Shown here one piece after another: positions 1,761-30,689 of a DNA stretch of 33,295 nucleotides. Made by a program: the position numbers and the translations under genes. The notes beneath the pieces are model-generated. The model worked only from the letters and a program-made list of their open reading frames with translations. It did no database searches and was not told the DNA's origin. The stretch is from Actinomycetota bacterium (GTDB lineage: Bacteria; Actinomycetota; Thermoleophilia; Gaiellales; F1-60-MAGs149): NCBI GenBank assembly GCA_009885805.1, contig VFJZ01000088.1, forward strand, positions 1 through 33,295, written 5' to 3'. The number at the start of each line of letters is the position of its first letter. Position 1 is the stretch's first letter.

Positions 1761-1798
1761 TTGCACCCGATCCAACGAGCCTTTACCATTGTCGACAT
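1761..1798 (+). promoter_or_regulatory. hyuA operon promoter with TGTCGACA operator (site A)
   Basis: A -35-like TTGCAC (1761-1766), a 17-bp spacer and a -10-like TACCAT (1784-1789) are followed at once by the perfect palindrome TGTCGACA (1790-1797). The expected transcription start, about 7 nt after the -10 box, falls inside the palindrome. The final A of the palindrome is the first base of ATG 1797, so the mRNA would be leaderless or nearly so. The same order recurs at 27401-27416. The proposed binder is the GntR/FCD protein encoded at 16671. Promoter assignment is by eye. Confidence 0.6.
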
Positions 1799-3902
1799 GC
1801 GAACGTTCCCAGGCCGACACGGGATTCGTTCCCCGACGGTTCCACCCCTTCGGAGCGTGAGGTCGAAGCTCGCGATCGATATCGGCGGGACTTTCACCGA
1901 CGTCGTGTTCCGCGACCCCAGCGGGGCTGTGACGACGGCAAAGGTGCCCACGACGCCGCACCGCATCGCCGAGGGCATCCTCGCCGGGATGGAGCGCGCC
2001 GGCGCCGTGCCCTCGGCAGTCGACGTGTTCGTCCATGGCACGACGATCGCAATCAACGCGTTGCTCGAAGGCAAGACCGCACCGACAGCCCTCGTCACGA
2101 CAGCCGGTTTTCGCGACGTCCTCGAGATCATGCGGACGAACCGCGCCCATATGTACGACCTCCTCCAAGAGAAGCCGACGCCGCTGGTCCCCCGCCGGCT
2201 GCGACTCGAGGTCTCGGCGCGGATGCGGCACGACGGGACCGTGCTGCGAGAGCTCGAGCCCCAGGATCTGCGCCAGATCGCCGACACCCTCCGGGACGCA
2301 GACGTCGCGAGCGTGGCCGTGTGCCTGCTGCACGCGTACGCCAACCCCCGGCACGAGCACGAGGTTGGGGCGGCGTTGGGAAAGCTGTTGCCCGGAGTCG
2401 CCGTCTCGCTCTCCAGCGACCTGACGCGAGAGTGGCGTGAGTTCGAACGCACCTCGACGACCGTCGTGAACGCCGCCACGATGCCCGTGATGGCGGAGTA
2501 CCTCGCCGACCTTTCCGACGAGCTCAGCCGCGCTCGATTTGCCGGGCGGCTGCTGATCATGCAGTCGAACGGCGGCGTCACCGCGGCGTCCGACGCCCGC
2601 GCTCGGCCGGTCGCCTCGCTGATGTCCGGCCCTGCAGGGGCCGTCGCTGGAGCGGTGGCGCTGGCGCGGGTCGGCGGTCCGACGGCGAACCTCGTGACGC
2701 TCGACATCGGTGGCACGAGCGCGGACGTCGCGGTGGTCGACCGAGGCGAGCCGACTGTGAGGGCGGACGCCGAGATCGAAGGCTGGCCGATCTCCGTGCC
2801 GTCGATCGACATCGCGACGATCGGGGCGGGCGGCGGTTCCCTGGCCCGCGTCGACGCTTTCGGTGCTCTGTCCGTCGGCCCCGAGAGCGCGGGCGCAGCA
2901 CCCGGCCCGGCGTGCTACGGACGTGGCGGCACTGAGGCGACCGTCACCGATGCGCACGTGGTTCTGGGTCGCATCGCACCGCGCCAGGTCCTCGGCGGTG
3001 CAATCACCGTGGACGGAGAGGCCGCCCGCCGCGCCGTAACAGCTTCCGTGGCCACCCCGTTGAGCATGAGCGTCGAGGAGGCGGCCGCCGGGATCGTCAC
3101 TGTCGTCAACTCCAACATGACGCGCGTGCTCTGGGAGATGATCATCGGCCGCGGACGCGACCCGCGCGACTTCACGCTCCTCGCGCTCGGTGGCGGTGGC
3201 GGGCTCCATGCGTGCGAGCTCGCTGATGGCCTTGGCGTCAGCCGCGTGATGGTGCCGCGCGATCCAGGTGCTTTCTCGGCTCACGGCATGCTCTCCGCGA
3301 CCAGCCGCCACGACTTCACGCAGACGATCGGCGCGGGTATCGCGAGCGACCCCGGCTCGATCGAAGCCGCGTTCGCCTCCCTCGTGCAACTCGCGCACGC
3401 CCGACGCGCGGAGCACGAGACCGGCGATCAAAACGTTGAGTTACAGCGGATGGTCGAGCTGCGGTACCGAGGCCAGCGCCGCGGCATCCCGGTCGAGATC
3501 TCGCCCGATCTCCGAGGTCACGCGATGATCGAGTCGGCGCGCGCCGCCTTCGAGCGGGAGCACGAGAGCCTGTTCGGCTTCCGACGAGCGGGGCGTCCGA
3601 TCGAGATCGTGCGGCTCCAGCTGACGATGATCGGCGCGCCGAGTGCAGCGGATCCCGTCGCTCTGCAGCCGGGGCCGTCGAGCCCGCCGGACGTTACCCA
3701 TCGCGCTGTCCAGGACGGGGGCACGCGCCACAACGCCGCGGTCTACCACCGCGATCAGTTGCCCGTGTCCTTTGCGGCCGACGGTCCCTGTGTCGTCGAG
3801 GAGATGACGGCAACGACGTACGTGCCGCCTGGATGGGGTCTACGGGTCCTCGCCGACGGCACGCTCCAGCTGTCCAAGAGCGCAGCGTCGATAGGAGCCT
3901 GA
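1797..3902 (+). CDS. hyuA: Hydantoinase/oxoprolinase family protein, subunit A (HyuA-type)
   Basis: ATP-binding subunit of an ATP-dependent cyclic amide hydrolase (N-methylhydantoinase, 5-oxoprolinase or acetone-carboxylase superfamily). It forms a cytoplasmic complex with HyuB. With the ATG at 1797 it has 701 residues, normal for the family. The N-terminal actin-fold nucleotide motif IDIGGTFTD lies at about 27-35, VHGTT at about 79-83, a second phosphate motif LDIGGTSADV at about 301-310, and the glycine-rich ALGGGGGLHA at about 462-471. The start is uncertain. ATG 1797 overlaps the operator and implies a leaderless transcript. GTG 1857 would give VRSKLAIDIGG, closer to typical family N-termini, but its GGAG lies only one base upstream. 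The open frame extends to 1620 but that part has no family similarity. It is first of eight genes and ends 6 bp before hyuB. The substrate (hydantoin, oxoproline or other lactam) cannot be inferred from these motifs. Confidence 0.93.
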   Translation: MRTFPGRHGIRSPTVPPLRSVRSKLAIDIGGTFTDVVFRDPSGAVTTAKVPTTPHRIAEGILAGMERAGAVPSAVDVFVHGTTIAINALLEGKTAPTALVTTAGFRDVLEIMRTNRAHMYDLLQEKPTPLVPRRLRLEVSARMRHDGTVLRELEPQDLRQIADTLRDADVASVAVCLLHAYANPRHEHEVGAALGKLLPGVAVSLSSDLTREWREFERTSTTVVNAATMPVMAEYLADLSDELSRARFAGRLLIMQSNGGVTAASDARARPVASLMSGPAGAVAGAVALARVGGPTANLVTLDIGGTSADVAVVDRGEPTVRADAEIEGWPISVPSIDIATIGAGGGSLARVDAFGALSVGPESAGAAPGPACYGRGGTEATVTDAHVVLGRIAPRQVLGGAITVDGEAARRAVTASVATPLSMSVEEAAAGIVTVVNSNMTRVLWEMIIGRGRDPRDFTLLALGGGGGLHACELADGLGVSRVMVPRDPGAFSAHGMLSATSRHDFTQTIGAGIASDPGSIEAAFASLVQLAHARRAEHETGDQNVELQRMVELRYRGQRRGIPVEISPDLRGHAMIESARAAFEREHESLFGFRRAGRPIEIVRLQLTMIGAPSAADPVALQPGPSSPPDVTHRAVQDGGTRHNAAVYHRDQLPVSFAADGPCVVEEMTATTYVPPGWGLRVLADGTLQLSKSAASIGA

Positions 3903-3908
3903 CGACAT

Positions 3909-5609
3909 ATGCCCACCGTCGATCCGATCACTCGGGAAGTCGTCCAGAACCGCCTCATCTCGATCGTGCGCGAGATGTCCCTGACACTCCAGCGGGCCGC
4001 CTACTCGCCGATCATCCACGAGGTCAAGGACTACAGCAGCGTCCTTCTTCGACCGAACGGCGACCTGGTGGCGGAGTCCGAAGGGATCCCATCCTTCCTC
4101 GGCGCCATGCCTCCGACGCTCACGCCCGTCCTGGCTCGGTATCCCGCCGCCTCCATGGCGGCTGGCGATGTGTACGTCTCGAACGATCCGTACCTGGCGA
4201 ACGGGACGCACAAGAACGATGTCAACGTGCTCGCACCGATCTTCGTCGGCGAGCGCTTGGTGTTCTTCGCCGTCACGAAGGCGCACTGGAGCGACATCGG
4301 CGGCAAAGACCCGGGAAGCTGGTCGCCGGACGCGACGAGCACCTACCAGGAGGGTCTCGCCATCCCGCCGCTACGCCTCTATCGATCGGGGGAGCTGAAC
4401 GAGGAGGTGCTCGACCTCATCCTCGCCAACACCCGCGAGCCGGAGGACAACCATGGCGACCTCATGGCGCAGATCGCTGCCTGCACTGTGGCCGGGCGGC
4501 GTACGGAGGATCTGTTCCAACGCTACGGCGGCGAAGCGGTTGCGGGATCGATCGACAGCCTGTTCGACTACGTGGAGGCGCGTATGCGCGCGGAGATCGA
4601 ACGCCTGCCCGACGGGATGTACACCGCCGCCGAGACGATCGAGTCGGACGGGCTCGGCGGTCCGCCATTCGACGTCACCGCCCGGGTGGTGATCACCGGC
4701 AGCGACATCCTCTGCGACTTCAGTGACCAGGAGCCGCAACGCGCCGCGGCTGGCGCGAACATCAACCGGGTGTGCCTAGAGGCGATGTGCCGGGTGGCGG
4801 TCAAGTGCCTGCTCGCGCCGACGCTCCCCGCGAACCAGGGCCTGTACCGGCCGGTATCAGTCGACGCGACGGTCGGGACGGTGACGCACCCCCGCCACCC
4901 GGCTCCGTGCACGACATGGGGCGAGATGGGCTACGCCGTGTACGAGGCGATCTTCGCCGCGCTCGCGCCCGTGCTTCCCGATCGGGTCGTGGCCGGCATC
5001 TTCGGGTACGGCCAGACGATGGCCATCGCTGGGCACGCGAGTGGGCACGCCTCCGCGTGGGTGCATTTCATGCCCTATGCCGGCGGCTGGGGGGGACGGC
5101 AGGGCAAGGATGGGCTCAGCGCCGTGTGCCCGCTCCTGAACGGCGATAACTTCAACGTTCCCTGCGAGGTGATCGAGCACGAGTTCCCGCTGCTGGTCGA
5201 GCGGTACGAGCTCGTTCAGGACTCTGCGGGGGCTGGTCGACACCGTGGCGGGCTTGGCGTCCGCACCGACTACCGGCTGCTCGACGGGCACGCGCAGGTC
5301 TTCGCGGCGTTCAACCGCTATTGCCTACCGCCCCGCGGGCTGTTCGGCGGCGATCCCGGAGGGCTCAGCGCGCTGATGCTCGAGCGGGACGGCGGCGGGC
5401 TCGAGAACTGTCCAAAGTCCGCCGGCACGATCGTGCGCGAGGGCGGACTGATTTCGCACCGCACGGGCGGCGGCGGCGGGTTCGGCGAGCCACGCGAGCG
5501 CGATCCGGCGCTCGTACGGCGGGACGTACTCGACGGCTATGTCTCTCAGGCTGCCGCGGCGTCCGCCTACGGCGCCCCAGGCGCGGCGCCCGCTGGGGAG
5601 CCGGCGTGA
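3909..5609 (+). CDS. hyuB: Hydantoinase/oxoprolinase family protein, subunit B (HyuB-type)
   Basis: Partner subunit of the preceding ATP-dependent cyclic amide hydrolase, 566 residues, full length for HyuB. It begins with the family-typical VDPITREVVQNRL and carries SNDPYLANGTHKNDV (about 94-108) and the metal-site-like AHWSDIGG (about 126-133). The usual C-terminal glycine-rich stretch is present, with RTGGGGGFGEPRERDP close to the end. AGGAG at 3893-3897, 11 nt upstream of ATG 3909, is a spaced but usable ribosome-binding site. The adjacent hyuA and matching domain set make an A2B2-type complex the natural reading. In this family HyuA primes the substrate with ATP and HyuB completes amide cleavage (family knowledge). 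The stop overlaps the next gene's GTG by four bases. Confidence 0.93.
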   Translation: MPTVDPITREVVQNRLISIVREMSLTLQRAAYSPIIHEVKDYSSVLLRPNGDLVAESEGIPSFLGAMPPTLTPVLARYPAASMAAGDVYVSNDPYLANGTHKNDVNVLAPIFVGERLVFFAVTKAHWSDIGGKDPGSWSPDATSTYQEGLAIPPLRLYRSGELNEEVLDLILANTREPEDNHGDLMAQIAACTVAGRRTEDLFQRYGGEAVAGSIDSLFDYVEARMRAEIERLPDGMYTAAETIESDGLGGPPFDVTARVVITGSDILCDFSDQEPQRAAAGANINRVCLEAMCRVAVKCLLAPTLPANQGLYRPVSVDATVGTVTHPRHPAPCTTWGEMGYAVYEAIFAALAPVLPDRVVAGIFGYGQTMAIAGHASGHASAWVHFMPYAGGWGGRQGKDGLSAVCPLLNGDNFNVPCEVIEHEFPLLVERYELVQDSAGAGRHRGGLGVRTDYRLLDGHAQVFAAFNRYCLPPRGLFGGDPGGLSALMLERDGGGLENCPKSAGTIVREGGLISHRTGGGGGFGEPRERDPALVRRDVLDGYVSQAAAASAYGAPGAAPAGEPA

Positions 5610-7036
5610 GCTCGACGCGAGGAGCGCGCGAGCCGTGCGACCTGCTGGTCGAAGGCGGCCTCGTGATCACGATGAACGCCGCTCGCACGGTGATCGAGGA
5701 CGGGGCGATCGCCATCGCCGACGGCCGCATCTGCGCGGTCGCCGGCGGTGTCGAACTGGCAGATCGCTTCGAGCCGCGCCGCTCGCTCAACGCACGCGGA
5801 TGCACCGTACACCCTGGGTTCGTGGACGCCCACGTGCACCCGACGCAACACCTGATCCGCTTCGCCTTCCCGGAGACCTTTCACTACGACGACACCCTCG
5901 GGTTCTATATCGACTTCATCCTCGCGCTGACGCCCGAGGACGAGCACATCGCCTCCAAGCTGGCCTGCCTGGAGATGGTCAGGCATGGCACGACGGCCTT
6001 CCTGGAAGGGTGCGGATCGGTGTTGGAGCCCGACGCGGCCGCCGCCGCCGTCGAGGAGGTCGGCCTTCGCGCGTCGCTCGCGGACCCCTACGTCTGGGAC
6101 GTGGGCGGCCCGTGGAGCGAGCCGCTGAAGCCGAGGATCGCGACCGACCGTCGCCGATCGCTCAGTATCCTCGGCGGCCAGCTCGCGCGCAACCGCGACC
6201 GCAGCTCCCGCGTTCGCGGTCACATCGCGCTTACCGGCCACGCCACGGCCTCGACGGAGCTGCTGCTCGCCGCGGCGGCGTGCGCACACGAGAACGGCGT
6301 TGTCCTCAACATGCACCAGAGCTATGCGGCGACGGACACGGCGGACGACGACCGCCTGCGTGGCGAACATCCACTCGTCCACTTCGAGCGCATGGGTGCG
6401 CTCTCGGAGCGCTGCACCTTCGCCCACATGAACGTGCTGCGAGATGATGAGGTCGCTTCGGTCGTGGACAGCGGCATGTCGGTCGTGTGGTGCCCCTCGG
6501 CGTCGATGCTGTGGGGCTGCGGCGGTACAATCACTGGCCCGCATCTCGACCTGTTCCGACGCGGTGTCGACGTCGCGCTCGGCTCGGATGCCTCGAACTT
6601 CTCCAGCCGCCTGGACGTCGCCGATCAGGGTTTCCTAGCGCTCTTGACCTCACGCGAGCGCACGTTGAGCCCCGACGCCCTGCTCGCTGGCGATGTGCTC
6701 GCCATGTGCACGATCCACGGGGCCCGTGCGCTCGGCATGGGCCACGAGATCGGGTCGCTCGAGGTCGGCAAGCTGGCCGATTTGGTCATCCGTCGTGCCG
6801 ATCTCCCGGAGGCGGCGCCCGGGCTCGATCCGATCCGAGATCTCGTGCTGGGTGCGCGCTCCCACAGCGTCGACACGGTCCTCGTCGGCGGCGAGGTGAT
6901 CCTCGAGGGCGGGCGCTCCTGCCGCGTGGACGAGGAGCAGGTACGGGCTCGCGCTGCCGCGTCGGCACGCAAGCTGCTCGCGCGGATGGGCCGGCCACTG
7001 CCCCAGCCCTCGGAAGCCAGGCGCGCGCCGAGATGA
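5606..7036 (+). CDS. Amidohydrolase, ATZ/TRZ-chlorohydrolase/cytosine-deaminase type
   Basis: Metal-dependent hydrolase or deaminase of the amidohydrolase superfamily, 476 residues. The metal motif DAHVHP gives His76 and His78. His237 (NMHQS), His274 (FAHMN) and Asp328 (LGSDAS) complete the usual one-metal set. The C-terminus has the composite-domain signature SLEVGKLADLVIRR followed by VDTVLVGGEVI. GTG 5606 was chosen because it overlaps the hyuB stop in a GTGA and starts just before the natural N-terminus EPCDLLVEGGLVI; the open frame reaches further upstream but runs through hyuB. Members of this group deaminate or dechlorinate N-heterocycles and guanidino or triazine compounds. Coupling to hyuAB suggests it supplies or further opens a cyclic amide, as creatinine deaminase supplies N-methylhydantoin (inference). 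A paralogue lies at 15264. Confidence 0.88.
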   Translation: MSSTRGAREPCDLLVEGGLVITMNAARTVIEDGAIAIADGRICAVAGGVELADRFEPRRSLNARGCTVHPGFVDAHVHPTQHLIRFAFPETFHYDDTLGFYIDFILALTPEDEHIASKLACLEMVRHGTTAFLEGCGSVLEPDAAAAAVEEVGLRASLADPYVWDVGGPWSEPLKPRIATDRRRSLSILGGQLARNRDRSSRVRGHIALTGHATASTELLLAAAACAHENGVVLNMHQSYAATDTADDDRLRGEHPLVHFERMGALSERCTFAHMNVLRDDEVASVVDSGMSVVWCPSASMLWGCGGTITGPHLDLFRRGVDVALGSDASNFSSRLDVADQGFLALLTSRERTLSPDALLAGDVLAMCTIHGARALGMGHEIGSLEVGKLADLVIRRADLPEAAPGLDPIRDLVLGARSHSVDTVLVGGEVILEGGRSCRVDEEQVRARAAASARKLLARMGRPLPQPSEARRAPR

Positions 7037-7851
7037 CGCGACGCGAGCTCGAACGGGTCATCGTGACCGGTGCGGCCCAGGGCATCGGCCTGGCGATCGC
7101 CCAGCGTTTCGCGCGCGACGGAGCGCGGGTCGCCGGGATCGACGTCCAGGAGGCGGCCGAGAGCGAGCCGGACGTGCCCGGCGTCCGCCGCTTTGTGGTG
7201 GACATCGCCGACGAGCGGAACGTGGCTCGCGCCTTCGACGACATCGACGCGTGGTTCGGTGGGCCGCCGGCCCTGCTCTGCAACGTCGCCGCGACCTACG
7301 CGATGGTCGCATTCGTGGACACGCCACTGGAGGCGTTCGATCGTGTGATGGACGTAAACGTGCGCGGGGCGTTCGTCTGCTCCCAGCACGCGGCACGGCG
7401 GATGGCGAGGGCCGGCGGCGGGGCCATCGTCAACATCACCTCGACGGAGAGCGTGCAGGCATTCGCGTTGGCGTCGGTCTACGGCGCATCCAAGGCGGCG
7501 TTGGCGCACCTGACGAAGAGCATGGCGGTTGAGCTCGCGCGCGATTCGATCATGGTCAACGCCGTGGCGCCTGGAGCCATTGCGACGGCATCGCTTCTTG
7601 ACTCCTTGGACGACCTTCCGGCGGCCGCCCGGCACGACGCCGAACGCACGCCGATCGGGCGCCTGGGATCGCCGGATGACATCGTCGCCGCGGTGTGCTT
7701 TCTCGCCTACGACGCGACCTGGATGACCGGTCAGACGATCTACGTCGACGGCGGCTTCCTCGCCGCCGGGCTGCCGCTGCTCCCGGAGCTCGACGGGACG
7801 CAGAAGCTGCCCTCGAGCTGGTTTCCGCCCCGGGCCGATCCCGATGCTTGA
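7033..7851 (+). CDS. Short-chain dehydrogenase/reductase (SDR), FabG-like
   Basis: NAD(P)-dependent oxidoreductase, 272 residues. The dinucleotide motif VTGAAQGIG is near residue 12-20, the catalytic Ser lies in NITSTES and the catalytic pair is in YGASK. It ends with the classical TGQTIYVDGGF followed by a tail of about 25 residues. The usual NNAG is replaced by CNVAA, which is seen in divergent SDRs. ATG 7033 overlaps the preceding stop by four bases (ATGA), implying translational coupling; the upstream extension of the frame is a shadow of the amidohydrolase gene. Expected role: oxidation or reduction of an alcohol or keto intermediate of the island's pathway. Substrate unknown. Confidence 0.88.
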   Translation: MTRRELERVIVTGAAQGIGLAIAQRFARDGARVAGIDVQEAAESEPDVPGVRRFVVDIADERNVARAFDDIDAWFGGPPALLCNVAATYAMVAFVDTPLEAFDRVMDVNVRGAFVCSQHAARRMARAGGGAIVNITSTESVQAFALASVYGASKAALAHLTKSMAVELARDSIMVNAVAPGAIATASLLDSLDDLPAAARHDAERTPIGRLGSPDDIVAAVCFLAYDATWMTGQTIYVDGGFLAAGLPLLPELDGTQKLPSSWFPPRADPDA

Positions 7852-9034
7852 TTCGGGAGAGAGGGAGGACGAGGTCGTCCACGTCGCGCGCCGGCTCATC
7901 GCCGCTCCGAGCGAGAACCCGCCGGGCGACGAACGTGCGGTGGCGACGGCGGTCATCGAGCTGCTGACCGAGCGCGGTATCGCCGACTGCAACGTCGTTG
8001 CCCACGACCCGCGACGGCCGAACGTGATTGCCCGCCTCGACAGCGGGAGACCGGGACCGACGCTTATCCTGTGCGGACATGTCGACACGAAGCCGGCAGG
8101 CTCGCACGACGCGTGGCACCACCCGCCCTTCGCCGGAGTCGTCGCGGACGGGCGCCTGTACGGCCTCGGGGCGACGGACATGAAGGGCGGCGTCGCCGCG
8201 ATCATCGTCGCGCTCGGCACCCTCCGCCGGTCCGGGGCCGTGCACCGGGGCGCGGTGGTCGGGCTGTTCACGGCCGACGAGGAGGCCGGCAGCGCACTCG
8301 GCGCCGGCTACCTCGCGAGCAGCGGACGCCTGAGCGCCGACGCCGCGATCATCGCCGAGCCTGCCGGGATCGACGACGACTGGCAGGCCCTTTTCCTGGG
8401 CACGCGCGGCTCGCTCCTGTTCCGCGTCGACGTCGACGGAGCACGCGGCCACTCCTCGCTCGAGGACCACCATCCCGGCATGTCGGCCACGATGGCAGTC
8501 GCGCACCTCATGACGGCGCTCGACGAGGCTTTCCGACGGTCGCCAGGCGTCGCCGTCAACGTCGGAGCCACGATCACCGGCGGCACGCACTACGGCGTGC
8601 GTGCGGGCTCCGCATCCTTCCGCGGCGACGTGCGGTTCCCGCCCGAGATGACCCATGCGGCGGCCGCGGCCATCCTGGAGCAGACCGTCGCTCGCTTCCA
8701 CGGGAGCCACCCCGAGGTGAGTGCCAAGGTGATCCTCGACGAGCTCTCTGGCGGGCCGTTCGAGCCGTTCAGCGTCGGAGCCCGATCCGTCGTCGCCGAA
8801 GCGTGTCGCGCGGCCGCGGCCGACGTCCTGGGCCGCGCGCCTGACGACGCCATCTTCCCAGGCGGCACCGACTCGTTCTTCCTCCAGGGCGGCGCCGGCA
8901 TCCCCACCGTGCCGGCGTTCGGACCGGGCTGCCTGCGCGAGGCCCACCAACCTGACGAGTACGTGTCCCTGTCATCGCTCCAGGCCGCGCCGGCGCTGCT
9001 GATCGGGGCGACGACGCGGTTCCTCGAGGCGTGA
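7844..9034 (+). CDS. M20-family metallohydrolase (ArgE/DapE/carboxypeptidase-like)
   Basis: Zinc-dependent amide hydrolase of 396 residues. The conserved ligands are visible: His79 in CGHVDT, Asp112 in GATDMKGG and the glutamate pair Glu146-Glu147 in ADEEAGS. The last zinc His is probably in the C-terminal EAHQPDEYV. A dimerisation domain sits between, with the usual GARGHSS segment. These enzymes remove an acyl, carbamoyl or aminoacyl group from an amino acid or short peptide. In a HyuAB operon the N-acyl or N-carbamoyl product of ring opening would be a fitting substrate (inference). ATG 7844 lies inside the end of the previous gene (8-bp overlap). A second M20 gene is at 29334; the two are clearly different in sequence. 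Confidence 0.87.
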   Translation: MLDSGEREDEVVHVARRLIAAPSENPPGDERAVATAVIELLTERGIADCNVVAHDPRRPNVIARLDSGRPGPTLILCGHVDTKPAGSHDAWHHPPFAGVVADGRLYGLGATDMKGGVAAIIVALGTLRRSGAVHRGAVVGLFTADEEAGSALGAGYLASSGRLSADAAIIAEPAGIDDDWQALFLGTRGSLLFRVDVDGARGHSSLEDHHPGMSATMAVAHLMTALDEAFRRSPGVAVNVGATITGGTHYGVRAGSASFRGDVRFPPEMTHAAAAAILEQTVARFHGSHPEVSAKVILDELSGGPFEPFSVGARSVVAEACRAAAADVLGRAPDDAIFPGGTDSFFLQGGAGIPTVPAFGPGCLREAHQPDEYVSLSSLQAAPALLIGATTRFLEA

Positions 9035-9813
9035 CCGTGCGGGTGGCGAGACGCGTGGCGTGGGTGACCGGCGCGGCCAGCGGGATCGGCGCGGCGACGG
9101 CGCGGCGGCTCGCGGCGGACGGCGCGTCGGTCGCATGCCTGGACGTCGACGAGGCCGGCCTCGAGAGCGTGGTCGCGGAGATCGGCCGCCACGCCGGCAC
9201 GGCCCTCGCGATCACCCTCGACGTCGCGGACGCGGCGGCCACGCGCGAGGCGGCCGGCCGGATCGAGCGAGACCTCGGCGCCGTGGAGGTGGTGGTCGCC
9301 GCAGCCGGCATCGTGCACGCGCAGGCCGACGTCGCGGATCTCGATCACGACGTTTGGCAGCGTGTGCTGACCGTCAACTTGACCGGCGTCTTCCTCACCG
9401 TACAGGCGGCGATCCCGCAGCTGCGACGGCACGGGCGCGGCGTCGTGATCGCGATCTCCTCCACCGGCGGCCTTCGCGGAAGCGCTGGCTACGCCGCCTA
9501 CGTCAGCTCTAAGCACGGCGTCGTCGGCCTGGTGCGGTGCCTGGCGAACGAGCTAGCTGCGGACGGCGTCCGCGTGAACGCTGTGTGCCCGGGATCGGTC
9601 GACACCCCGATGCTGGATCGCCAGGCTGCCGAGCGCGGGCTGGATCGCGACGTTGCCTCGCAGGCGTGGGCGAGGGCCCACCTGATCGAGCGCCTGGTGA
9701 CCGCAGACGAGGTCGCGTCCGCTGTCGCGTGGCTTGCGGGCGATTCCGCGCAGATGATCACCGGTCTGGCGCTGCCCGTCGACGGCGGCTCGCTGGCCCG
9801 GCCCCCCGAATGA
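9031..9813 (+). CDS. SDR family oxidoreductase, FabG-like
   Basis: 260-residue Rossmann-fold dehydrogenase. TGAASGIG (about 13-20) binds the cofactor. AAAGIVHA replaces NNAG, AISSTGG carries the catalytic Ser, and YVSSK carries Tyr and Lys. The acidic end of beta-2 (CLDVDE) suggests NAD(H) rather than NADP(H) preference (family rule). It ends in TGLALPVDGGSLA. The GTG start at 9031 overlaps the upstream TGA (GTGA). It is one of two SDRs in this operon and six in the island; no residue pins down a substrate. Confidence 0.87.
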   Translation: MTVRVARRVAWVTGAASGIGAATARRLAADGASVACLDVDEAGLESVVAEIGRHAGTALAITLDVADAAATREAAGRIERDLGAVEVVVAAAGIVHAQADVADLDHDVWQRVLTVNLTGVFLTVQAAIPQLRRHGRGVVIAISSTGGLRGSAGYAAYVSSKHGVVGLVRCLANELAADGVRVNAVCPGSVDTPMLDRQAAERGLDRDVASQAWARAHLIERLVTADEVASAVAWLAGDSAQMITGLALPVDGGSLARPPE

Positions 9814-11141
9814 CCGACACAGGGAGCAGCATGGGCACGCCCTCCGATCCGTCTCGCGACCGTCCGACGTACGCGGCCTCCGCAGCGCTCTACACCCGGG
9901 CCCGTGAGTCGCTCGCAGGTGGCGTCTCGACGGCCTTCCGCATGTTCGAGCGGCCCGTGCCGCTCTTCGTCCGCGAGGCGTCTGGGGCCTGGCTCGTGGA
10001 CGAGGACGGTAACGAGTACGTCGACTACGTCTGCGGCTATGGCCCAGTGATCCTGGGTCACGCCCATCCTGCGGTCGCCTCAGCCGTCGCCCACGCCGCA
10101 GCGACGATCCAGCAGGTCGGCGCCCAGCATCGCGCCGAGGTCGAGCTCGCCGAGCGCCTGTGCGCCGTCGTGCCGGCCTTCGAGCGCGTCAGGCTTGGCC
10201 TGACCGGTTCCGACGCGGTACACGCCGCGCTGCGGCTCGCGCGCGCCGCGACCGGACGGTCGCTTGTCGTCAAGTTCGCCGGGCACTACCACGGGTGGCT
10301 CGACTCGGTGCTCACGGGAACGGCCCACCTGCCTCCCGGCCTTCCCGAGACGGCTGGGCAGCCGCTGTCCGCGCTCGCCGACATCGTGGTCGTCGACTGG
10401 AACGACGAGGACGTCCTGCGGAGGATCATCGTCGACGCCGGCGATCGTCTGGCGGCCGTGATCATGGAGCCGATGGCCTGCAACGCCGGCGTCATCCCGC
10501 CGCGTGCCGGATACCTGGAGCTCGCCCGCGAGCTGACGTCGAACGCGGGCGCGTTACTGGTCTTCGACGAGGTCATCACGGGCTTTCGCGTCGCTCCGGG
10601 AGGGGCGCAGGAGGTGTTCGGCGTCGTGCCCGACCTCGCCGTCGTCGCCAAGGCGCTGGGGAACGGCTTCCCCATCAGCGCCTTTGGGGGCCGCGCCGAC
10701 CTCATGGAGCTCGTTGCCTCGAACCGAGCTATGCACGCCGGTACGTTCAACGGCGGCGGCGTCTCGGTAGCTGCCGCGAACGCCACGCTCGACGTGCTCC
10801 TGGCCGAGGACGGGGCGGGCTACGCGCACATGCGCGCGCTCGGTCTGCGCCTGATGGAAGGGCTCGTAGAGCGGGCGGCCGCGGCCGGTCGGCGGCTGGT
10901 GGCGCAAGGGCCTGGGCCCGTGTTCTACACCTGGTTCCTGTCCGACGGCGGCGTCGAGAGCTACCGCGACCACCTGCGGGCCGATAGCGCGGCGTACGCG
11001 AGACTGGCGGAGCAACTCGCGCACGAGGGGGTCCGCGTCATCCCCACCGGCCGTTGGTACCTCACGACCGCCCACACCGGCGCGGACGTCGACCGGACAC
11101 TCGACGCCGTCGAGCGCGCGCTGCTGCGCTTGGACGCGTGA
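9810..11141 (+). CDS. Class III PLP aminotransferase, glutamate-1-semialdehyde aminomutase-like
   Basis: Fold-type I PLP enzyme of 443 residues (436 from the alternative ATG 9831, which has a good AGGGAG 4 nt upstream). ATG 9810 gives the ATGA overlap seen throughout the operon, so either start may be used. The cofactor lysine is Lys281 in VVAKALGNGFPI and the pyridine-N aspartate is Asp253 in LVFDEVITGF. The PLP phosphate loop reads TGSDAV, where most relatives have TGSEAV. The overall pattern (RARESLAGGVSTAFR, VDYVCGYGPVILGHAHP) is that of HemL-like aminomutases. The catabolic setting and lack of haem genes argue for an amino-group transferase acting on a pathway intermediate, not HemL itself (inference). 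Confidence 0.88.
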   Translation: MTDTGSSMGTPSDPSRDRPTYAASAALYTRARESLAGGVSTAFRMFERPVPLFVREASGAWLVDEDGNEYVDYVCGYGPVILGHAHPAVASAVAHAAATIQQVGAQHRAEVELAERLCAVVPAFERVRLGLTGSDAVHAALRLARAATGRSLVVKFAGHYHGWLDSVLTGTAHLPPGLPETAGQPLSALADIVVVDWNDEDVLRRIIVDAGDRLAAVIMEPMACNAGVIPPRAGYLELARELTSNAGALLVFDEVITGFRVAPGGAQEVFGVVPDLAVVAKALGNGFPISAFGGRADLMELVASNRAMHAGTFNGGGVSVAAANATLDVLLAEDGAGYAHMRALGLRLMEGLVERAAAAGRRLVAQGPGPVFYTWFLSDGGVESYRDHLRADSAAYARLAEQLAHEGVRVIPTGRWYLTTAHTGADVDRTLDAVERALLRLDA

Positions 11142-12589
11142 CGTCCGCGCCGCGCGTCGCGCTCGCTGGCGTCTTCCACGAGTCGAACACGTTCGTCCCG
11201 CGCGCAACGACCCTCGATGCCTTCCGCGGCGCCTGGCACGAGGGGCCTGACCTCATCGACGCGCTGGAGGGCACGCAGACCGTGACGGGCGGCTTCATCG
11301 CCGGCGCGCGGCGGCTCGGCTTCGCACTGCGCCCGGCCGTCCACGCGTGGGCCACGCCCGCTGGCGCCGTGGAACCCGCCGCCTTCAACGTGCTCTGCTC
11401 GACACTGACGAGGGAGCTGCAGGCGGTGGGGCCCGTCGACGGGGTCCTACTCGAGCTCCATGGTGCGATGGTAGTCGAGGGCCGGGCCGCGGCCGACGCG
11501 GAACTCGCACGCGTCGTGCGCGCGGCGGTGGGCGACGTGCCGATCGTGACCGTCGTCGACCCGCACGCCAACGTTGCGCCGGGCCTCGTCGACGCCGTCG
11601 ACGTCCTGATCGCCTACCAGACCAACCCGCACGTCGATATGGCCGAGAGAGGCGAGGAGGCTGCGGCGCTCCTCGGGAGCATGCTGGCGGGGAGCCGGCC
11701 TGCCCAGGTCGCCGTGCGCATCCCCATCGTCGCGCCCGCGATCGCCCAGGCCACGGGCGACGAGCCGCTCGCCGAGCTCGTGTCGTGGACGCGGTCCCGG
11801 GCCGTCGCTGCCGGCGCCGCCGCTGCGTCGCTCGCGTTCGGGTTCGCCCACGCCGACGTCCCGGAGCTGGGCATGACCGCGATCGTCGCCCACGACGACG
11901 CGCGGCAGGCCGCTCATCTCGCGCGTGCCATCGCCACGCGGACATGGGAGGTCCGCCAGGGCTTCCGGCGCCGGCTGCTGTCCGCGGAGGAAGCCGTCGA
12001 GCTCGCGGCGGCGACGCCGGGCGTGGTCGCCCTCGCAGACACCGGGGACAACGTCGGCGGGGGCGCGCCAGGCGATTCGACGGTCCTGGCCCACGCACTG
12101 CTCGCTCACGGAGACCTTCGTGCCATGACGACCATCTGCGACCCCGGAGCGGTGGCCCACGCGAGCTCGCTCGGCGAAGGCGCGACGATCGACCTCGTGG
12201 TCGGACGGCCGCAGCTGCGTCTGGTCGGGACAGTACGGGCGCTGCGCGATGGCCGGTACGTCAACGACGGCCCGCTCTCGGCAGGGGTGGCATTCGACAT
12301 GGGGCGCGTTGCGATTGTCGACGTCGGCCCACTCGTCGTCGTGCTCCAGAGCGTCGCCGTGATGGCCAACGATCAGAACATGCTGCGCTCGATAGGCGTC
12401 GACGTGCAGACGTTGGACGCGATCGTCCTCAAGGGAGCGGCCGCGGTCCGCGCCGGCTGGGCCTCCGCCACGGTGCGCATCGTCGACGTAGGGACGCCGG
12501 GGCCGACCACCTCCGACCTTGCCACTTTGCCGTACCAGTCCATCTCGCGCCCGTTGTGGCCGCTCGACGGGTGCGAGTGGTCGCCGTGA
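11138..12589 (+). CDS. M81-family metallopeptidase, MlrC-like
   Basis: Zinc metallohydrolase of the M81/DUF1485 family, typified by microcystinase C, 483 residues from GTG 11138 (GTGA overlap with the aminotransferase). Conserved features: FHESNTFVP (about 13-21), metal-site DPHANV with Asp141 and His143, and NPHVDMAERG with His165 and Asp167. The C-terminal-domain motif GDNVGGGAPGDST corresponds to the usual D-PGGGAPGD-T. MlrC acts on linear microcystin and short peptides; most family members sit in amino-acid, hydantoin or oxoproline gene clusters with unknown substrates. It is last in the eight-gene unit. Its stop is one base from that of the opposing gene, so no terminator fits between them. 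Confidence 0.88.
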   Translation: MTSAPRVALAGVFHESNTFVPRATTLDAFRGAWHEGPDLIDALEGTQTVTGGFIAGARRLGFALRPAVHAWATPAGAVEPAAFNVLCSTLTRELQAVGPVDGVLLELHGAMVVEGRAAADAELARVVRAAVGDVPIVTVVDPHANVAPGLVDAVDVLIAYQTNPHVDMAERGEEAAALLGSMLAGSRPAQVAVRIPIVAPAIAQATGDEPLAELVSWTRSRAVAAGAAAASLAFGFAHADVPELGMTAIVAHDDARQAAHLARAIATRTWEVRQGFRRRLLSAEEAVELAAATPGVVALADTGDNVGGGAPGDSTVLAHALLAHGDLRAMTTICDPGAVAHASSLGEGATIDLVVGRPQLRLVGTVRALRDGRYVNDGPLSAGVAFDMGRVAIVDVGPLVVVLQSVAVMANDQNMLRSIGVDVQTLDAIVLKGAAAVRAGWASATVRIVDVGTPGPTTSDLATLPYQSISRPLWPLDGCEWSP

Positions 12590-12590
12590 C

Positions 12591-13295
12591 CTAGGCGGGC
12601 CAGGTGAGCTGCGGCGGCGGCGCACCGGCCTCGAAGTAGCGGAGCGCGGCGTCGATGTGCGCGGTCGCGCCAGTCTCGACCGCGTCGCCGTGTCCCGCCA
12701 GCAGGACGTCGGGCTCGAGCGTCCGCACGTGCTCGAGGCTCGTGCGCAGGCGGTCGGGGTTGCAGTCGGGCAGCGGTTGCAGGACGACACGTCCGCCGGC
12801 GAAGATGAGATCGCCGGCCAGGAGCGTACGGCGGCCGCGGCCTGCCTCGACCAGGAAGGCGAGATGCCCGTCGCTGTGTCCGGGGGTGTCGAGCACGTGC
12901 AGGCGGCAACCGCCGAGGTCGAGGGCGGTGCCGCCGTCGAGATCCTCCACCGACGGGCAGGCTACGAGGCGCAGGCCCGGGGGATAGGTGCCCTGCGCGC
13001 GCGCCTGTAAGAGACCGGCGCGTTCCTCGTCCCCGGCGCGCAGCCCCTCCGCCGTCCAGGGATGTGCGAGCACGCGCAGGCCGGCCCTGGCGAGGGCGGC
13101 CGCGCCCCCTGCGTGGTCGAGGTGCAGGTGCGTGAGCAGTACGGTGTCGACACCGGCTGGCGGACGCAGCGGTCGACGCCCGCAGCCCGTGTCGACCAGA
13201 ACGGCCCGCCGTCGCCCGCGAACGACGTAGAACGACCCGTCGAGCGGATCCGTGAGGAGCGGGCCGAGCGCCCCGCCGCCGATGTGCTCGATCAC
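12591..13295 (-). CDS. MBL-fold metal-dependent hydrolase (glyoxalase II-like)
   Basis: 234-residue metallo-beta-lactamase-fold protein. The signature THLHLDHAGG supplies His56, His58, Asp60 and His61; His140 (TPGHSDGH), Asp162 (LAGDLIF) and His202 (LAGHGD) complete a two-metal site. GTG 13295 was chosen for its GGAGG six bases upstream and the natural start VIEHIGGGALGPLL; longer readings run into the neighbouring SDR. Such proteins hydrolyse thioesters, lactones or phosphate esters. Position as the last gene after an SDR and a PLP lyase suggests hydrolysis of an activated acid or lactone (inference). It overlaps the upstream SDR gene's 3' neighbourhood by position only: the SDR stop is at 13309-13311, 13 bp away. 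Confidence 0.85.
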   Translation of the reverse strand: MIEHIGGGALGPLLTDPLDGSFYVVRGRRRAVLVDTGCGRRPLRPPAGVDTVLLTHLHLDHAGGAAALARAGLRVLAHPWTAEGLRAGDEERAGLLQARAQGTYPPGLRLVACPSVEDLDGGTALDLGGCRLHVLDTPGHSDGHLAFLVEAGRGRRTLLAGDLIFAGGRVVLQPLPDCNPDRLRTSLEHVRTLEPDVLLAGHGDAVETGATAHIDAALRYFEAGAPPPQLTWPA

Positions 13296-13308
13296 GTAGG
13301 CCTCCGCG

Positions 13309-14091
13309 TCAGTAGGAGAGAAAGCCGCCGTCGACGACGATGGTCGTACCCGTGATGAACCCCGCGTCGTCGGACGCGGCGAACAGAACGGCGGCCGCGA
13401 CGTCGTCCCCCGTGCCGCGGCGCCCGAGGGGCGTCCGGCGGGCGTAGCGGGTGAGGCCCGCCTCGGTCCGCCGGCTGGCCGCGGCGGCACTGCGGCGGGT
13501 CGCGATATCCCCTGGCGCGACGCCGACGACTCGGATGCCGAGGTCGGCGAGCTCCAACGCCGCCGCGCGCGTCAGCAGCTCGAGGCCGCCCTTGCTCGCG
13601 CAGTACGCGGACGCGTGCTCCTGCGCGGCGAAGCCGCCGACCGACCCTACGTTCACGATGACGCCTGCCGGCCGGAGGTGCGGCGCTGCGTCGCGGATCA
13701 GGCGGAAGGGTGCCTTGAGGTTCACGTCGACGACGTGGTCGAGAAGCGCGTCGCTTGTCTCGAGCAGCGGGGCGAGGACGGGCGCGCCGGTTGCAGCGGC
13801 GTTGTTCACGAGTACGTCGAGTCCGCCGAGCGCCGCCAGCGTCCCCTCGATGAGGCGCCGGCACCCGTCGGCGCTGGCGAGGTCTGCACCGATTGCCTCG
13901 AGCCTGCAGGGCTCGCGCGCCGCCGGAACGCCCCGGCGCAGCAGGCCCACGGCGGTCGATCCGCGCGTGCGGGACGAGTGGCCTATGACGACGTGGTCGC
14001 CCGTTGCCAGGAACGCCGCGGCGATGGCCCGGCCAATCCCGGAACTTCCCCCGGTCACGAGAACGCGGCGCCGGGCTGCGGTGGCGCTCAT
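13309..14091 (-). CDS. SDR family oxidoreductase
   Basis: 260 residues. The N-terminal cofactor motif VTGGSSGIG (about 13-21), VNNAAATGAP, catalytic Ser in NVGSVGG and Tyr/Lys in YCASK are all present, and it ends in TTIVVDGGFLSY. GHSSR after beta-2 suggests an NADP(H)-type pocket (rule of thumb only). ATG 14091 overlaps the stop of the PLP enzyme by four bases. The frame stays open upstream but that part is a shadow of the PLP gene. It is the middle gene of a three-gene reverse operon driven from the divergent promoter at 15195-15246. Confidence 0.88.
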   Translation of the reverse strand: MSATAARRRVLVTGGSSGIGRAIAAAFLATGDHVVIGHSSRTRGSTAVGLLRRGVPAAREPCRLEAIGADLASADGCRRLIEGTLAALGGLDVLVNNAAATGAPVLAPLLETSDALLDHVVDVNLKAPFRLIRDAAPHLRPAGVIVNVGSVGGFAAQEHASAYCASKGGLELLTRAAALELADLGIRVVGVAPGDIATRRSAAAASRRTEAGLTRYARRTPLGRRGTGDDVAAAVLFAASDDAGFITGTTIVVDGGFLSY

Positions 14092-15158
14092 CCGGCGGAC
14101 CGCGGGAACGACCTGTCGATGTCCTCGACGTGCAGGCGGCGGGGCCGGCCCGCTGCTTTCGTGGCAGCGAGGGTCTTGAGACCGCTGCCGGTCAGCAGCA
14201 CAACGGCCCCTGGGACGGGGTCGGCCAGATAGCCGGCGTATGCCGTGGCCGCGGCCGGCTCGACGAACACGCCGTAGCGCTGGGCGAGGATGCTCTGTGC
14301 GGCAAGAGCCGCGGCATCGTCGACCGCGACGGTCCAGCCTCTTGATGCGCGAACCGCCGCGAGGGCCGCTTCGCCGTCCGGCGGGTTGGTCAGCTGGAGC
14401 CCGGAGATCGCGGTGTGGCAGGCGTCGATCGGTGCGACGGTATCGGCGCCGGCCTGCGCGGCGAGGTGGATCGGCGCGCACCCTGTGGCCTGCACGGCGA
14501 CGAGCCGGGGCGCCGTCGTGGCCCGGCCCAGGGCCTGCCACTCCGCGAACCCGTCCCATAGGCTCGCGACGAGGCCGCCGCCACCGGTCGGGACGTACAC
14601 GACGGACGGTGCAGAGCCGATCTGCTCAACGAGCTCGAACGCGATCGTCTTGACCCCCGCCATCGAGGCCTCGTTGAAGGCACGAGCCGTGATCGCCACG
14701 ACGAGCCGCTCCGCGGCGGCGATGCGCTTCACCGCGGCGAAGACGCCGGCCTCGACGTTCGGGTCCTTGCCGAACCCGACGACCTCGGAGACGTCGACGC
14801 CATGGGCCTCGACCTGGGCGAGCTTCTCGCGCGGCGCGCCGTCGACGGTGAACAGCCGTCCGGAAAGGCCGGTGCGCGCGCCATATGCGGCGTACGCGGC
14901 ACCCGCGTTCCCCGACGACGTCCCGATCCAGCCGGAGTAGCCGTGGGCGACGCCGATGCTGATGCCGACCGCCGCGATGCGGTCCTTATACGAGCCGGTC
15001 GGATTCAGGTGGTCGCACTTGAGCAGCGTGTCGCCGGCTGACACGAGCGGCGTTCCGCCCTCGCCGAGCGAGACGCGCGACACGCCCGCAGGGAGCACGA
15101 GATCGTCGTACCGGCTCGACCAGTAGTCGGGCGGCTGCCAGGGCGTCGGCAGGGTCAC
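14088..15158 (-). CDS. Threonine synthase-like PLP enzyme (fold type II)
   Basis: 356-residue pyridoxal-phosphate enzyme of the tryptophan-synthase-beta family. The cofactor lysine is Lys58 in NPTGSYKDR, the substrate loop SSGNAG is at 81-86 and the phosphate-binding TGGGGL at 191-196. It resembles threonine synthases and threonine/diaminopropionate ammonia-lyases. Placement in a catabolic operon, with no homoserine kinase or dehydrogenase nearby, favours a beta-elimination or beta-replacement role over threonine biosynthesis (inference). GTG 15158 is used: an in-frame stop lies shortly upstream with no ATG between. A short leader frame at 15187-15155 ends across this GTG. Confidence 0.85.
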   Translation of the reverse strand: MTLPTPWQPPDYWSSRYDDLVLPAGVSRVSLGEGGTPLVSAGDTLLKCDHLNPTGSYKDRIAAVGISIGVAHGYSGWIGTSSGNAGAAYAAYGARTGLSGRLFTVDGAPREKLAQVEAHGVDVSEVVGFGKDPNVEAGVFAAVKRIAAAERLVVAITARAFNEASMAGVKTIAFELVEQIGSAPSVVYVPTGGGGLVASLWDGFAEWQALGRATTAPRLVAVQATGCAPIHLAAQAGADTVAPIDACHTAISGLQLTNPPDGEAALAAVRASRGWTVAVDDAAALAAQSILAQRYGVFVEPAAATAYAGYLADPVPGAVVLLTGSGLKTLAATKAAGRPRRLHVEDIDRSFPRSAG

Positions 15159-15187
15159 CGAGGCTGGCGCATGTTCACAGGCGCCAT
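15155..15187 (-). other. Possible leader peptide overlapping the start of the PLP enzyme gene
   Basis: Ten-codon frame MAPVNMRQPR whose TGA overlaps the GTG of the threonine-synthase-like gene in a GTGA. It lies 24 nt inside the predicted transcript. No good ribosome-binding site was seen. It could couple translation into the downstream gene, or be chance. A comparable nine-codon frame precedes the SDR at 27440. Confidence 0.3.
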
Positions 15188-15194
15188 TTCAATG

Positions 15195-15246
15195 TTGTAC
15201 TGTCGACATTCGAACGCAGTATAGAAGCCGACCGCAACGGTCGCAA
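15195..15246. promoter_or_regulatory. Divergent promoter region with TGTCGACA operator (site B)
   Basis: The palindrome TGTCGACA is at 15201-15208. On the reverse strand, TTGCGA (15246-15241), 17 bp and TATACT (15223-15218) form a good promoter for the PLP-enzyme operon; its start would fall near 15211, so the palindrome lies at about +4 to +11. On the forward strand, TTGTAC (15195-15200) and TATAGA (15220-15225) are spaced by 19 bp, a weaker promoter for the amidohydrolase-GntR unit; here the palindrome occupies the spacer. One bound repressor could block both directions and autoregulate the GntR gene. Confidence 0.55.
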
Positions 15247-15263: not shown

Positions 15264-16667
15264 ATGGAACCTCTCGATCTCATCGTCGTCAACGCGCGCG
15301 TGCTCACGATGGACCCCGATCGCCGCGTCCTCGCTCCCGGGTACGTGGGCGTGCACAAGGGCCGCATCGCCATGCTTGGCGAGGGGTCCCCGCCGTCGCT
15401 GCCCGCCGGCGTCCGCGTCGTGGACGCTGCGGGCGGGCTCTGCCACCCCGGGCTGATCGACACGCACGCCCATGTCGCCTGGGGCCTCGTGCGCTGTGCC
15501 GTGCCGGAGCAGTTGAGCGAGGAGGAGATCTTCCGGCTCTTCGACGAGCGCATGCTCGGCCGCGTGCGTGACGAGGACGAACACCTGGGGACGCTGCTCG
15601 CCTGCGCCGAGATGGCCATGAACGGGACGACGTGCTTCGCCGACACCGGAAGCGCCCTGCACCACCTCGCGCCTACTGCGGAGGCCGTTGCGGCGGTGGG
15701 CATCCGCGGCATGATCTCGACCCTCAACGGCGACACCGTCGTCCAGGTTCCCGCGCTGTCCCTCCCCGTCGATAGCTGCCTCGCGCGTATCGAGGAGGGA
15801 CTCCAGCGCTATCCGCTGGGCGACGAGCTAGCGTGGGCGTGCGCCGGCCTCCTCGGCATGGAGGGGGCGAGCGATGCGCTCGTGCGAGACGCCAAGGCGC
15901 TCGCCGATGGCGCCGGCGTGCCGCTCAACCTGCACAAGTCGTTCTCCCCTGACGAGGTGGCCGCCTGCCGTGCGCGCCTGGGGGGTCGTGATCCGCTCGA
16001 GGGATTCGACGACCTCGGCGTCCTCGACCGCAACATCACTCTGGTGCACCTGAACCGGTGCTCGCCACGCGAGATCGATCTCCTGACGGCCGCCGGCAGC
16101 AGCGTCTGCCACTGTCCGGCAGCCTCGATGATGTACGCGATGGGCGGCTCGCTGGAGGGACACGTCCCGCGCCTGCTCGCGGCCGGCGTGCCGGTCGCCC
16201 TCGGCACCGACTCGACCCACTGGGGCAACGCGTGGGACCTCACGCGCGCGATCTATCTCGCCGCCACCGTGCACAAGGAGGGCACGCGGACCCGGCCCGC
16301 GATCGACGCCGAGCTGGCGCTGGAGATGGCGACCATCCACGGCGCCCGGGCGGTGGGGCGTGAGCACGACCTCGGATCGCTCGAGGTGGGCAAACGCGCC
16401 GATCTCGTCCTGCACGGAACGGGGCGGCCGGAGGCCCATCCCGCGCTCGACCCGATCGCGAACCTCGTGTTCTCCGCGCAATCCAAGACGGTCGACACCG
16501 TGCTCGTCGAGGGGAACGAGGTCGTCCGCGGCGGCCGGCCGACGCGCATCGATCTGGACGCCTTGCTAGCGCGCGCCGACCGCGGTGCGCGTGACCTGCT
16601 GCAGCTTCTCGACTACCGTCCTCCGCGGCGATGGGCCGCCGCCCGGCGTCCCAGTCGCACCGAATAG
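15264..16667 (+). CDS. Amidohydrolase, ATZ/TRZ-chlorohydrolase/guanine-deaminase type (second copy)
   Basis: 467-residue amidohydrolase-superfamily enzyme. Metal ligands are His68 and His70 (DTHAHV), His224 (NLHKS), His262 (LVHLN) and Asp316 (LGTDS). The C-terminal SLEVGKRADLVLHG and VDTVLVEGNEVV match the same family as the gene at 5606, so the two are paralogues with substantially different middles. The likely reaction is hydrolytic deamination or ring or side-group removal from an N-rich small molecule. ATG 15264 lacks a clear ribosome-binding site. It is followed after 3 bp by the regulator gene, forming a two-gene unit. Pairing with the regulator suggests an early step, but this is inference. 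Confidence 0.88.
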   Translation: MEPLDLIVVNARVLTMDPDRRVLAPGYVGVHKGRIAMLGEGSPPSLPAGVRVVDAAGGLCHPGLIDTHAHVAWGLVRCAVPEQLSEEEIFRLFDERMLGRVRDEDEHLGTLLACAEMAMNGTTCFADTGSALHHLAPTAEAVAAVGIRGMISTLNGDTVVQVPALSLPVDSCLARIEEGLQRYPLGDELAWACAGLLGMEGASDALVRDAKALADGAGVPLNLHKSFSPDEVAACRARLGGRDPLEGFDDLGVLDRNITLVHLNRCSPREIDLLTAAGSSVCHCPAASMMYAMGGSLEGHVPRLLAAGVPVALGTDSTHWGNAWDLTRAIYLAATVHKEGTRTRPAIDAELALEMATIHGARAVGREHDLGSLEVGKRADLVLHGTGRPEAHPALDPIANLVFSAQSKTVDTVLVEGNEVVRGGRPTRIDLDALLARADRGARDLLQLLDYRPPRRWAAARRPSRTE

Positions 16668-16670
16668 CTG

Positions 16671-17363
16671 ATGAGCATCCCGCCTTCCTTCGACGGCACG
16701 CCCCGCCGGCTCTCGGACCAGCTCGCCACCTACCTGCGCAACGAGATCTACGCGGGTCGGCTGCGGCCGGGCCAGCGTCTGTTCGAGGTGGAGCTGTGCG
16801 AGCGGCTCAACGTCAGCCGTGCGCCGCTCCGGGAGGCGATCCTGACGCTGCGGACAGACGGCCTCGTCGACGTCCGCCCGCACCGTGGAGCGGTGGTGAC
16901 GACACTCGAGGACGACGACATCCGCGAGGTCTTCGCGCTCCGACAGCTCGTGGAGCCGCTCGCGGCCCGCGCCGCCGCCGAGCGGAACGACCCGATCGGG
17001 CTCGACAGGATGCGGCAGGCGTTCGACGATCTCCGCGTCGCCCTTCAGCGAGACGACCCGCTGACCATCGCCGTCGCCCACAGCGAGCTGCACCGCAGCA
17101 TCGCGCAGGCATCTGGCATGCCGCGGCTCGCCGTGTTCGTCCAGGTGCTGTGCACGCAGATGCTCGCGTCCCACGGGACGGGATACGCGCTCCACCCCGA
17201 CGCGACGCGCACGCTAGTCGAGGACCACGAGCCGCTGGTGGCGGCCATCGTCGCCGGCGATTCTGACGCCGCCGAGCGATTGATGCGGGAGCACTTCCGC
17301 CCGGTCGAGCCGATGCTCGACGCCTACCGGCGACTTCGCAAGGAGTCGGCGCACGAGGCCTAG
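16671..17363 (+). CDS. GntR-family transcriptional regulator, FCD (FadR/VanR) subfamily
   Basis: 230 residues. The N-terminal winged helix-turn-helix (about 14-80) has the GntR pattern LRNEIYAGRLRPGQRL, then ELCERLNVSRAPLREAI and LRTDGLVDVRPHRGAVV. The C-terminal FCD ligand domain carries candidate metal or ligand residues His141, His186 and His208. FCD regulators bind short palindromes, often over promoters, and are released by a pathway metabolite, usually a carboxylate (family knowledge). It is the only transcription factor in the island. TGTCGACA palindromes occur at every divergent or leading promoter of the island, including the one that drives this gene, so it is the obvious candidate regulator (inference). 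It converges with the Rieske gene; the two stops are 16 bp apart. Confidence 0.92.
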   Translation: MSIPPSFDGTPRRLSDQLATYLRNEIYAGRLRPGQRLFEVELCERLNVSRAPLREAILTLRTDGLVDVRPHRGAVVTTLEDDDIREVFALRQLVEPLAARAAAERNDPIGLDRMRQAFDDLRVALQRDDPLTIAVAHSELHRSIAQASGMPRLAVFVQVLCTQMLASHGTGYALHPDATRTLVEDHEPLVAAIVAGDSDAAERLMREHFRPVEPMLDAYRRLRKESAHEA

Positions 17364-24886: not shown

Positions 24887-24890
24887 TAGA

Positions 24891-24924
24891 TGTCGACATT
24901 AGAACAGTCGATGCCCAAAGTCAA
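24891..24924 (-). promoter_or_regulatory. Promoter and TGTCGACA operator of the transport operon (site D)
   Basis: Reverse strand: TTGACT (24924-24919), 17 bp, TAATGT (24901-24896); an alternative -10 is TCTAAT (24903-24898) with a short 15-bp spacer. The palindrome TGTCGACA (24891-24898, 10 bp as ATGTCGACAT) overlaps the -10 box and the predicted start, which lies 3-5 bases ahead of ATG 24886. Direct copies of ATTAGA sit on either side at 24885-24890 and 24898-24903. Confidence 0.6.
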
Positions 24925-27376: not shown

Positions 27377-27414
27377 TTGACTCGATCAAGTGTACACGGA
27401 TAGAATTGTCGACA
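27377..27414 (+). promoter_or_regulatory. Promoter and TGTCGACA operator between divergent SDR genes (site C)
   Basis: Forward: TTGACT (27377-27382), 18 bp, TAGAAT (27401-27406), directly followed by TGTCGACA (27407-27414), whose last A begins ATG 27414. This is the layout of site A. A second palindrome, GTGTACAC, lies in the spacer at 27390-27397. For the reverse gene a weak -10-like TACACT (27394-27389) is present, with the operator upstream in its -35 zone. One regulator dimer could control both directions. Confidence 0.6.
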
Positions 27415-30680: not shown

Positions 30681-30689
30681 GGAGGTCCG

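Follow-up and report, generated by a model that had tools for sequence, protein, structure and literature searches.

FadR-subfamily GntR regulators recognize operators that consist of TKGT/ACMA boxes in which GT and AC are 2 or 3 nt apart (PMC4494728). Those regulons of this FCD-containing subfamily that use 2-nt-spaced operators (GntR, HpxS, HypR, UxuR and PrpR; PMC4494728) resemble the gene cluster described here in their GT-N2-AC core and in their catabolic genes, and, again like the cluster, subfamily regulons have a single site near the center of the divergon to which the regulator gene belongs (PMC4494728). Operators placed over the -10 box are common, as in the case of HypR (PMC6608401) and of mycobacterial toxin-antitoxin operators (PMC9477884). 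HypR does so in its own promoter (PMC6608401), and the sites of the cluster likewise lie on the -10.

Compact units of operator, promoter and leaderless start are already documented as well, e.g., the nreAXY promoter of Mesorhizobium (PMC12724321), which is also very compact and contains its operator. The leaderless mRNA of nreAXY was shown by 5'-RACE whereas those of the cluster are predicted, and nreAXY differs further in its CsoR/RcnR-type repressor and in an operator between -35 and -10 instead of on the -10/+1 (PMC12724321). Leaderless genes led by TANNNT are known for high-GC groups, and the cluster differs from them only by the added operator (PMC3160421). Finally, RTGA-coupled leaderless short ORFs are over-represented in mycobacteria and begin with an ATG at the 5' end and stop at a TGA that runs into the following start codon (Shell et al. 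2015, PMC4633059), just like the pair 27414/27440 of the cluster; unlike those, the ORF of the cluster resembles a partial second copy of the 5' end of the SDR gene and shares bases with an operator, and its translation is putative.

Transcription units of the gene cluster

The window that we analyzed is the whole stretch of 33,295 nucleotides. Using a simple gene caller based on codon usage, for which 393 kb of this genome served as training data, we distinguish six transcription units in its cluster, listed here with the genes discussed below:

1857-12589, plus strand: hyu operon, eight same-strand genes with hyuA first
1857-3902, plus strand: hyuA (hydantoinase/oxoprolinase A), read from GTG 1857
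12591-15158, minus strand: operon of PALP enzyme, SDR and metallo-beta-lactamase-fold hydrolase
15264-17363, plus strand: amidohydrolase-gntR operon, with the amidohydrolase (15264-16667) as first gene
16671-17363, plus strand: GntR-family regulator with FCD domain (FadR subfamily), candidate repressor
24886-17380, minus strand: GFO/IDH-transport operon, headed by the GFO/IDH/MocA oxidoreductase gene (23885-24886)
24962-27321, minus strand: SDR and S15 peptidase genes, divergent
27440-31533, plus strand: SDR-aminotransferase-M20-SDR unit, with the SDR gene 27440-28198 starting at ATG 27440

The cluster (1857-31533) encodes caprolactamase/hydantoinase-like HyuAB, M20 hydrolases and an M81 MlrC-like metallopeptidase together with class III and class V aminotransferase-type enzymes, amidohydrolases, an oligopeptide-type ABC transporter, an S15 peptidase and a Rieske oxygenase. 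This gene content suggests the catabolism of a lactam- or peptide-like compound. At the contig end, we note an AbiEi-like antitoxin/regulator gene (32688-33275).

One palindrome in each start region

The 8-mer palindrome TGTCGACA is found at 1790, 15201, 24891 and 27407, exactly once in each of the four start regions that serve all six transcription units of the cluster. The probability of one copy per start region is about 5e-13 when calculated from the genome's own density of TGTCGACA, and that of at least four sites in start regions is about 6e-11 under local base composition, though all these values are approximate because we delimited the four regions with the sites already known. Apart from TGTCGACA and its one-base shifts, no 8-mer is common to at least three of the four regions, and an Rfam search returned no match. 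Six copies lie on the 33-kb contig versus 0.25 expected; the two at 8080 and 13145 are located within genes and were set aside as chance occurrences. Across the 3.56-Mb genome, the palindrome occurs 33 times compared to 11 for a reversed control, mostly in coding sequence. All copies outside the cluster but one are coding according to the gene caller or, in two uncalled cases (L004 and L061), as judged by eye, and this sole non-coding copy precedes a hicBA-like gene pair on another contig.

By a simple rule of our own that requires TANNNT, a promoter-like element of the sigma70 type coincides with each of the four sites, while a 393-kb genome sample contains such elements at a background density of ca. 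0.07 per kb per strand. The sites and elements are as follows:

1789-1798: operator TTGTCGACAT, hyu promoter
1784-1789, plus strand: -10 TACCAT of the hyu promoter; -35 TTGCAC at 1761-1766, 17-bp spacer
15200-15209: operator CTGTCGACAT (fourth site), PALP/amidohydrolase-gntR divergent promoter region
15198-15203, plus strand: -10 TACTGT of the amidohydrolase-gntR promoter, overlapped by the operator; -35 TTCACA at 15174-15179, 18-bp spacer
15218-15223, minus strand: -10 TATACT of the PALP promoter; -35 TTGCGA at 15246-15241, 17-bp spacer; operator at about +1 to +10
24890-24899: operator ATGTCGACAT, GFO/IDH promoter; on the minus strand (24899-24890), CTA separates it from ATG 24886
24896-24901, minus strand: -10 TAATGT of the GFO/IDH promoter, overlapped by the operator; -35 TTGACT at 24924-24919, 17-bp spacer
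27406-27415: operator TTGTCGACAT, between the two divergent SDR genes
27401-27406, plus strand: -10 TAGAAT of the SDR promoter; -35 TTGACT at 27377-27382, 18-bp spacer
298-732 of contig C60 (L069): hicB/hicA-like pair, unlinked to the cluster

At the hyu and SDR promoters, the operator begins with the last T of the -10, and at the GFO/IDH and amidohydrolase promoters it overlaps the -10. What all sites have in common is thus that the operator overlaps the -10/+1, whereas overlap with a start codon is not shared. Our rule found no promoter for the SDR-S15 genes on the minus strand (start 27321). Upstream of the hyu promoter, we further observed a 25-nt direct repeat (84%) with GAAACCCTTC at 1642-1666 and 1734-1758 (spacing 92).

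The initial annotation had described three of these sites as a set, which is real and far from chance but lacks both the site at 15200-15209, located where the regulator's operon and the PALP operon diverge, and the cassette in front of the hicB-like gene. The reported order of -10, palindrome and ATG is found exactly so at 1784-1799 (TACCAT-TGTCGAC-ATG) and 27401-27416 (TAGAAT-TGTCGAC-ATG), both on the plus strand. At 24886, an ATG indeed follows the palindrome, but the latter reads ATGTCGACAT instead of TTGTCGACA and overlaps the likeliest -10 (TAATGT, 24901-24896) rather than coming after it.

A FadR-type regulator as candidate repressor

The regulator encoded at 16671-17363 matches the Pfam families GntR (E 1.3e-16) and FCD (E 7.8e-27), both above the cut-off, and thus has the GntR winged helix and FCD domain that together place it in the FadR subfamily. 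The gene lies 3 nt downstream of the amidohydrolase gene, and the regulator's operon therefore begins at site 15201. This divergent site is 46.5 nt away from the PALP start and 59.5 nt away from the start of the regulator's operon, which agrees with where single sites have been reported to lie in divergons. All four sites read TGT-CG-ACA and hence contain a GT/AC core with 2-nt spacing (GT-CG-AC) as seen in FadR-subfamily operators. The exact TKGTNNACMA is absent from all four start regions, with A, T or C in place of T at the outer bases, and because the full TKGT/ACMA boxes are lacking we consider the operator FadR-like in form and not a proven member. At the FadR contact positions 28 and 40, the regulator carries Val and Pro, which we take to align with FadR Arg35 and Thr47. 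Arg and Ser at these positions correlate with G/C at the K base, while Pro correlates with its avoidance (PMC4494728). Val and Pro in the regulator are thus consistent with the T found at the K base of the sites. No close ortholog of the regulator was detected in the order or in our class sample (best hit about 41% identity), so that its pairing with the sites has no phylogenetic footprint, and a scan of genome contigs with the regulator retrieved only relatives of 28-31%.

Taken as a whole, the sequence makes it likely that the TGTCGACA sites are operators of a local GntR/FCD regulon that overlie the -10/+1 of sigma70-type promoters, with the regulator at 16671-17363 as the repressor, which is predicted to bind ATTGTCGACATG. 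We envision that the regulator binds the palindromes as a dimer and that its presence on the -10 box or on the first transcribed bases would block RNA polymerase, keeping the units of the amide/peptide/amino-acid catabolic cluster, including the regulator's own operon, repressed until a pathway metabolite would release it. To our knowledge, this palindrome and these target genes match no known regulon.

A further observation counts against such a local regulon. On contig C60, the identical arrangement TAAAGT-TGTCGAC-ATG precedes ATG 311 of the hicB-like gene without a recognizable -35, and a cluster-specific regulator leaves this cassette unexplained (the naming as hicBA is tentative because both Pfam matches are below curated cut-offs). 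The palindrome might instead be the operator of a regulator encoded elsewhere in the genome that controls both the cluster and the hicBA-like pair. We regard this as improbable given that four of the five promoter copies are found in the cluster, that one of the sites marks the start of the operon with the cluster's own FadR-type gene, and that both motif and contact residues fit the FadR family. As predicted from these data, a local regulon of the GntR type whose operators sit on compact and in part leaderless promoters is well supported.

Predicted leaderless starts and the first codons of the cluster genes

TANNNT-N7-ATG is about three times more frequent in the genome than in a reversed control (185 versus 64), and TANNNT in front of called genes peaks at in-frame spacings of 6, 7 and 9. 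Moreover, SD-like (n = 73) and leaderless (n = 54) gene starts avoid each other, with 4 genes in both classes versus 13 expected (P 6e-4). Leaderless-type promoters of the form TANNNT-N6-9-RTG are therefore ordinary in this genome. Since the lineage routinely uses them, an operator at +1 falls beside or into the first codons, and the predicted outcome differs between the sites: at 24886 the gene starts almost without a leader, ahead of the SDR gene a short leaderless ORF arises that could be coupled to it via ATGA (27414/27440), and for hyuA an in-frame ATG makes the start ambiguous (1797 versus 1857). The relevant features are:

1797-1799, plus strand: ATG that shares bases with the operator and would extend hyuA in frame by 20 codons; doubtful as a start
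27414-27443, plus strand: putatively leaderless 9-codon ORF (MMPVALTST, then stop), whose TGA 27441-27443 overlaps ATG 27440 as ATGA
27408-27431 and 27434-27457, plus strand: two near-identical 24-nt copies (96%), spacing 26

According to the initial annotation, one fused sequence would determine where transcription and translation begin as well as repression, and ATG 1797, 24886 and 27414 would be the gene starts on leaderless mRNAs. Several observations agree with this idea: no Shine-Dalgarno-like sequence precedes any of the three ATGs, just as stated; their spacing from the -10 (N7 at 1797 and 27414, N9 at 24886) fits the leaderless promoters of this genome; and the hicB-like gene on C60 has the same cassette. 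It holds best at 24886, the sole usable start ahead of the Rossmann motif of the GFO/IDH/MocA oxidoreductase. There we moved the start from the caller's GTG 24835, inside this motif, to the ATG as the only earlier one, and the gene is therefore predicted to be near-leaderless.

The other two starts fare worse. ATG 27414 precedes ATG 27440 by 26 nt but does not share the reading frame of the SDR gene; its own frame closes after 9 codons, and it is not the start of that gene. With an RTG at the predicted transcript start, a length within 5-50 codons and a TGA-start overlap, it instead has the properties of RTGA-type small ORFs, and in view of the two 24-nt copies it seems to be a partly duplicated 5' end of the SDR gene itself. 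At hyuA, homology and codon usage favor GTG 1857 over ATG 1797, the very outcome that the initial annotation had named as speaking against its proposal. Residue 3 of a solved N-methylhydantoinase aligns to residue 24 of the product read from ATG 1797, and the stretch 1797-1856 scores as non-coding (log-odds -5.7) with a GC3 of 0.60 versus 0.85. The first 17 codons of the GFO/IDH gene have a negative coding score, too (-4.3), which makes codon scores alone weak evidence at gene starts. GTG 1857 is not proven either, because the only SD-like sequence at hyuA, a GGAG, ends 1 nt before it.

Finally, the PALP and amidohydrolase-gntR promoters carry the operator but have their start codons about 45-55 nt downstream, and fusion of operator and start codon is therefore not a rule. 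Two short ORFs can be seen upstream of the PALP gene on the minus strand (15209-15155), one from ATG 15209 inside the operator (MSTVQH, then stop) and one from ATG 15187 (MAPVNMRQPR, then stop) whose TGA overlaps the GTG start 15158 as GTGA. All in all, a unit that fuses the three functions appears decidedly unlikely. Its transcriptional part stands in that the operator is located on the -10/+1 of promoter-like elements and plausibly sets repression at the transcription start, but it does not generally set the start of translation.

It is more improbable still, to the point of being negligible, that the palindrome is a chance sequence or a by-product of leaderless promoter preferences: GTCGA-like spacers do occur in a few other TANNNT-N7-ATG matches and the genome-wide excess of TGTCGACA is mostly coding, but a perfect 8-mer in four of four start regions (P about 1e-12) and its presence at two promoters with a leader, where the context of the start codon is irrelevant, argue strongly otherwise. 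A mere leaderless consensus of this genome was rejected for the same two promoters and because TANNNTTGTCGACATG accounts for only 3 of the 185 TANNNT-N7-ATG matches. Those 3 are all its matches in the 3.56-Mb genome, compared to none for the reversed pattern and none in 60 related genomes.

Implications

The local regulon that we favor would be concrete and testable, with one regulator, four operators and six transcription units in a hydantoinase-type catabolic cluster of a lineage rich in leaderless promoters. For annotation, the gene start at 27414 is corrected and the one at 1797 probably is as well. In front of hyuA, the SDR unit, the PALP gene (ATG 15209) and the unlinked hicB-like gene, an ATG is found at one end of the operator, 7-8 nt after the -10. 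There is some chance, albeit a limited one, that derepressed mRNAs begin with an operator-encoded 5'-terminal AUG that opens either a protein or a short ORF, in which case the control of transcription and translation would co-evolve in one 16-bp unit. More broadly, the cluster would provide a natural case of mutual constraint between repressor sites and leaderless starts.
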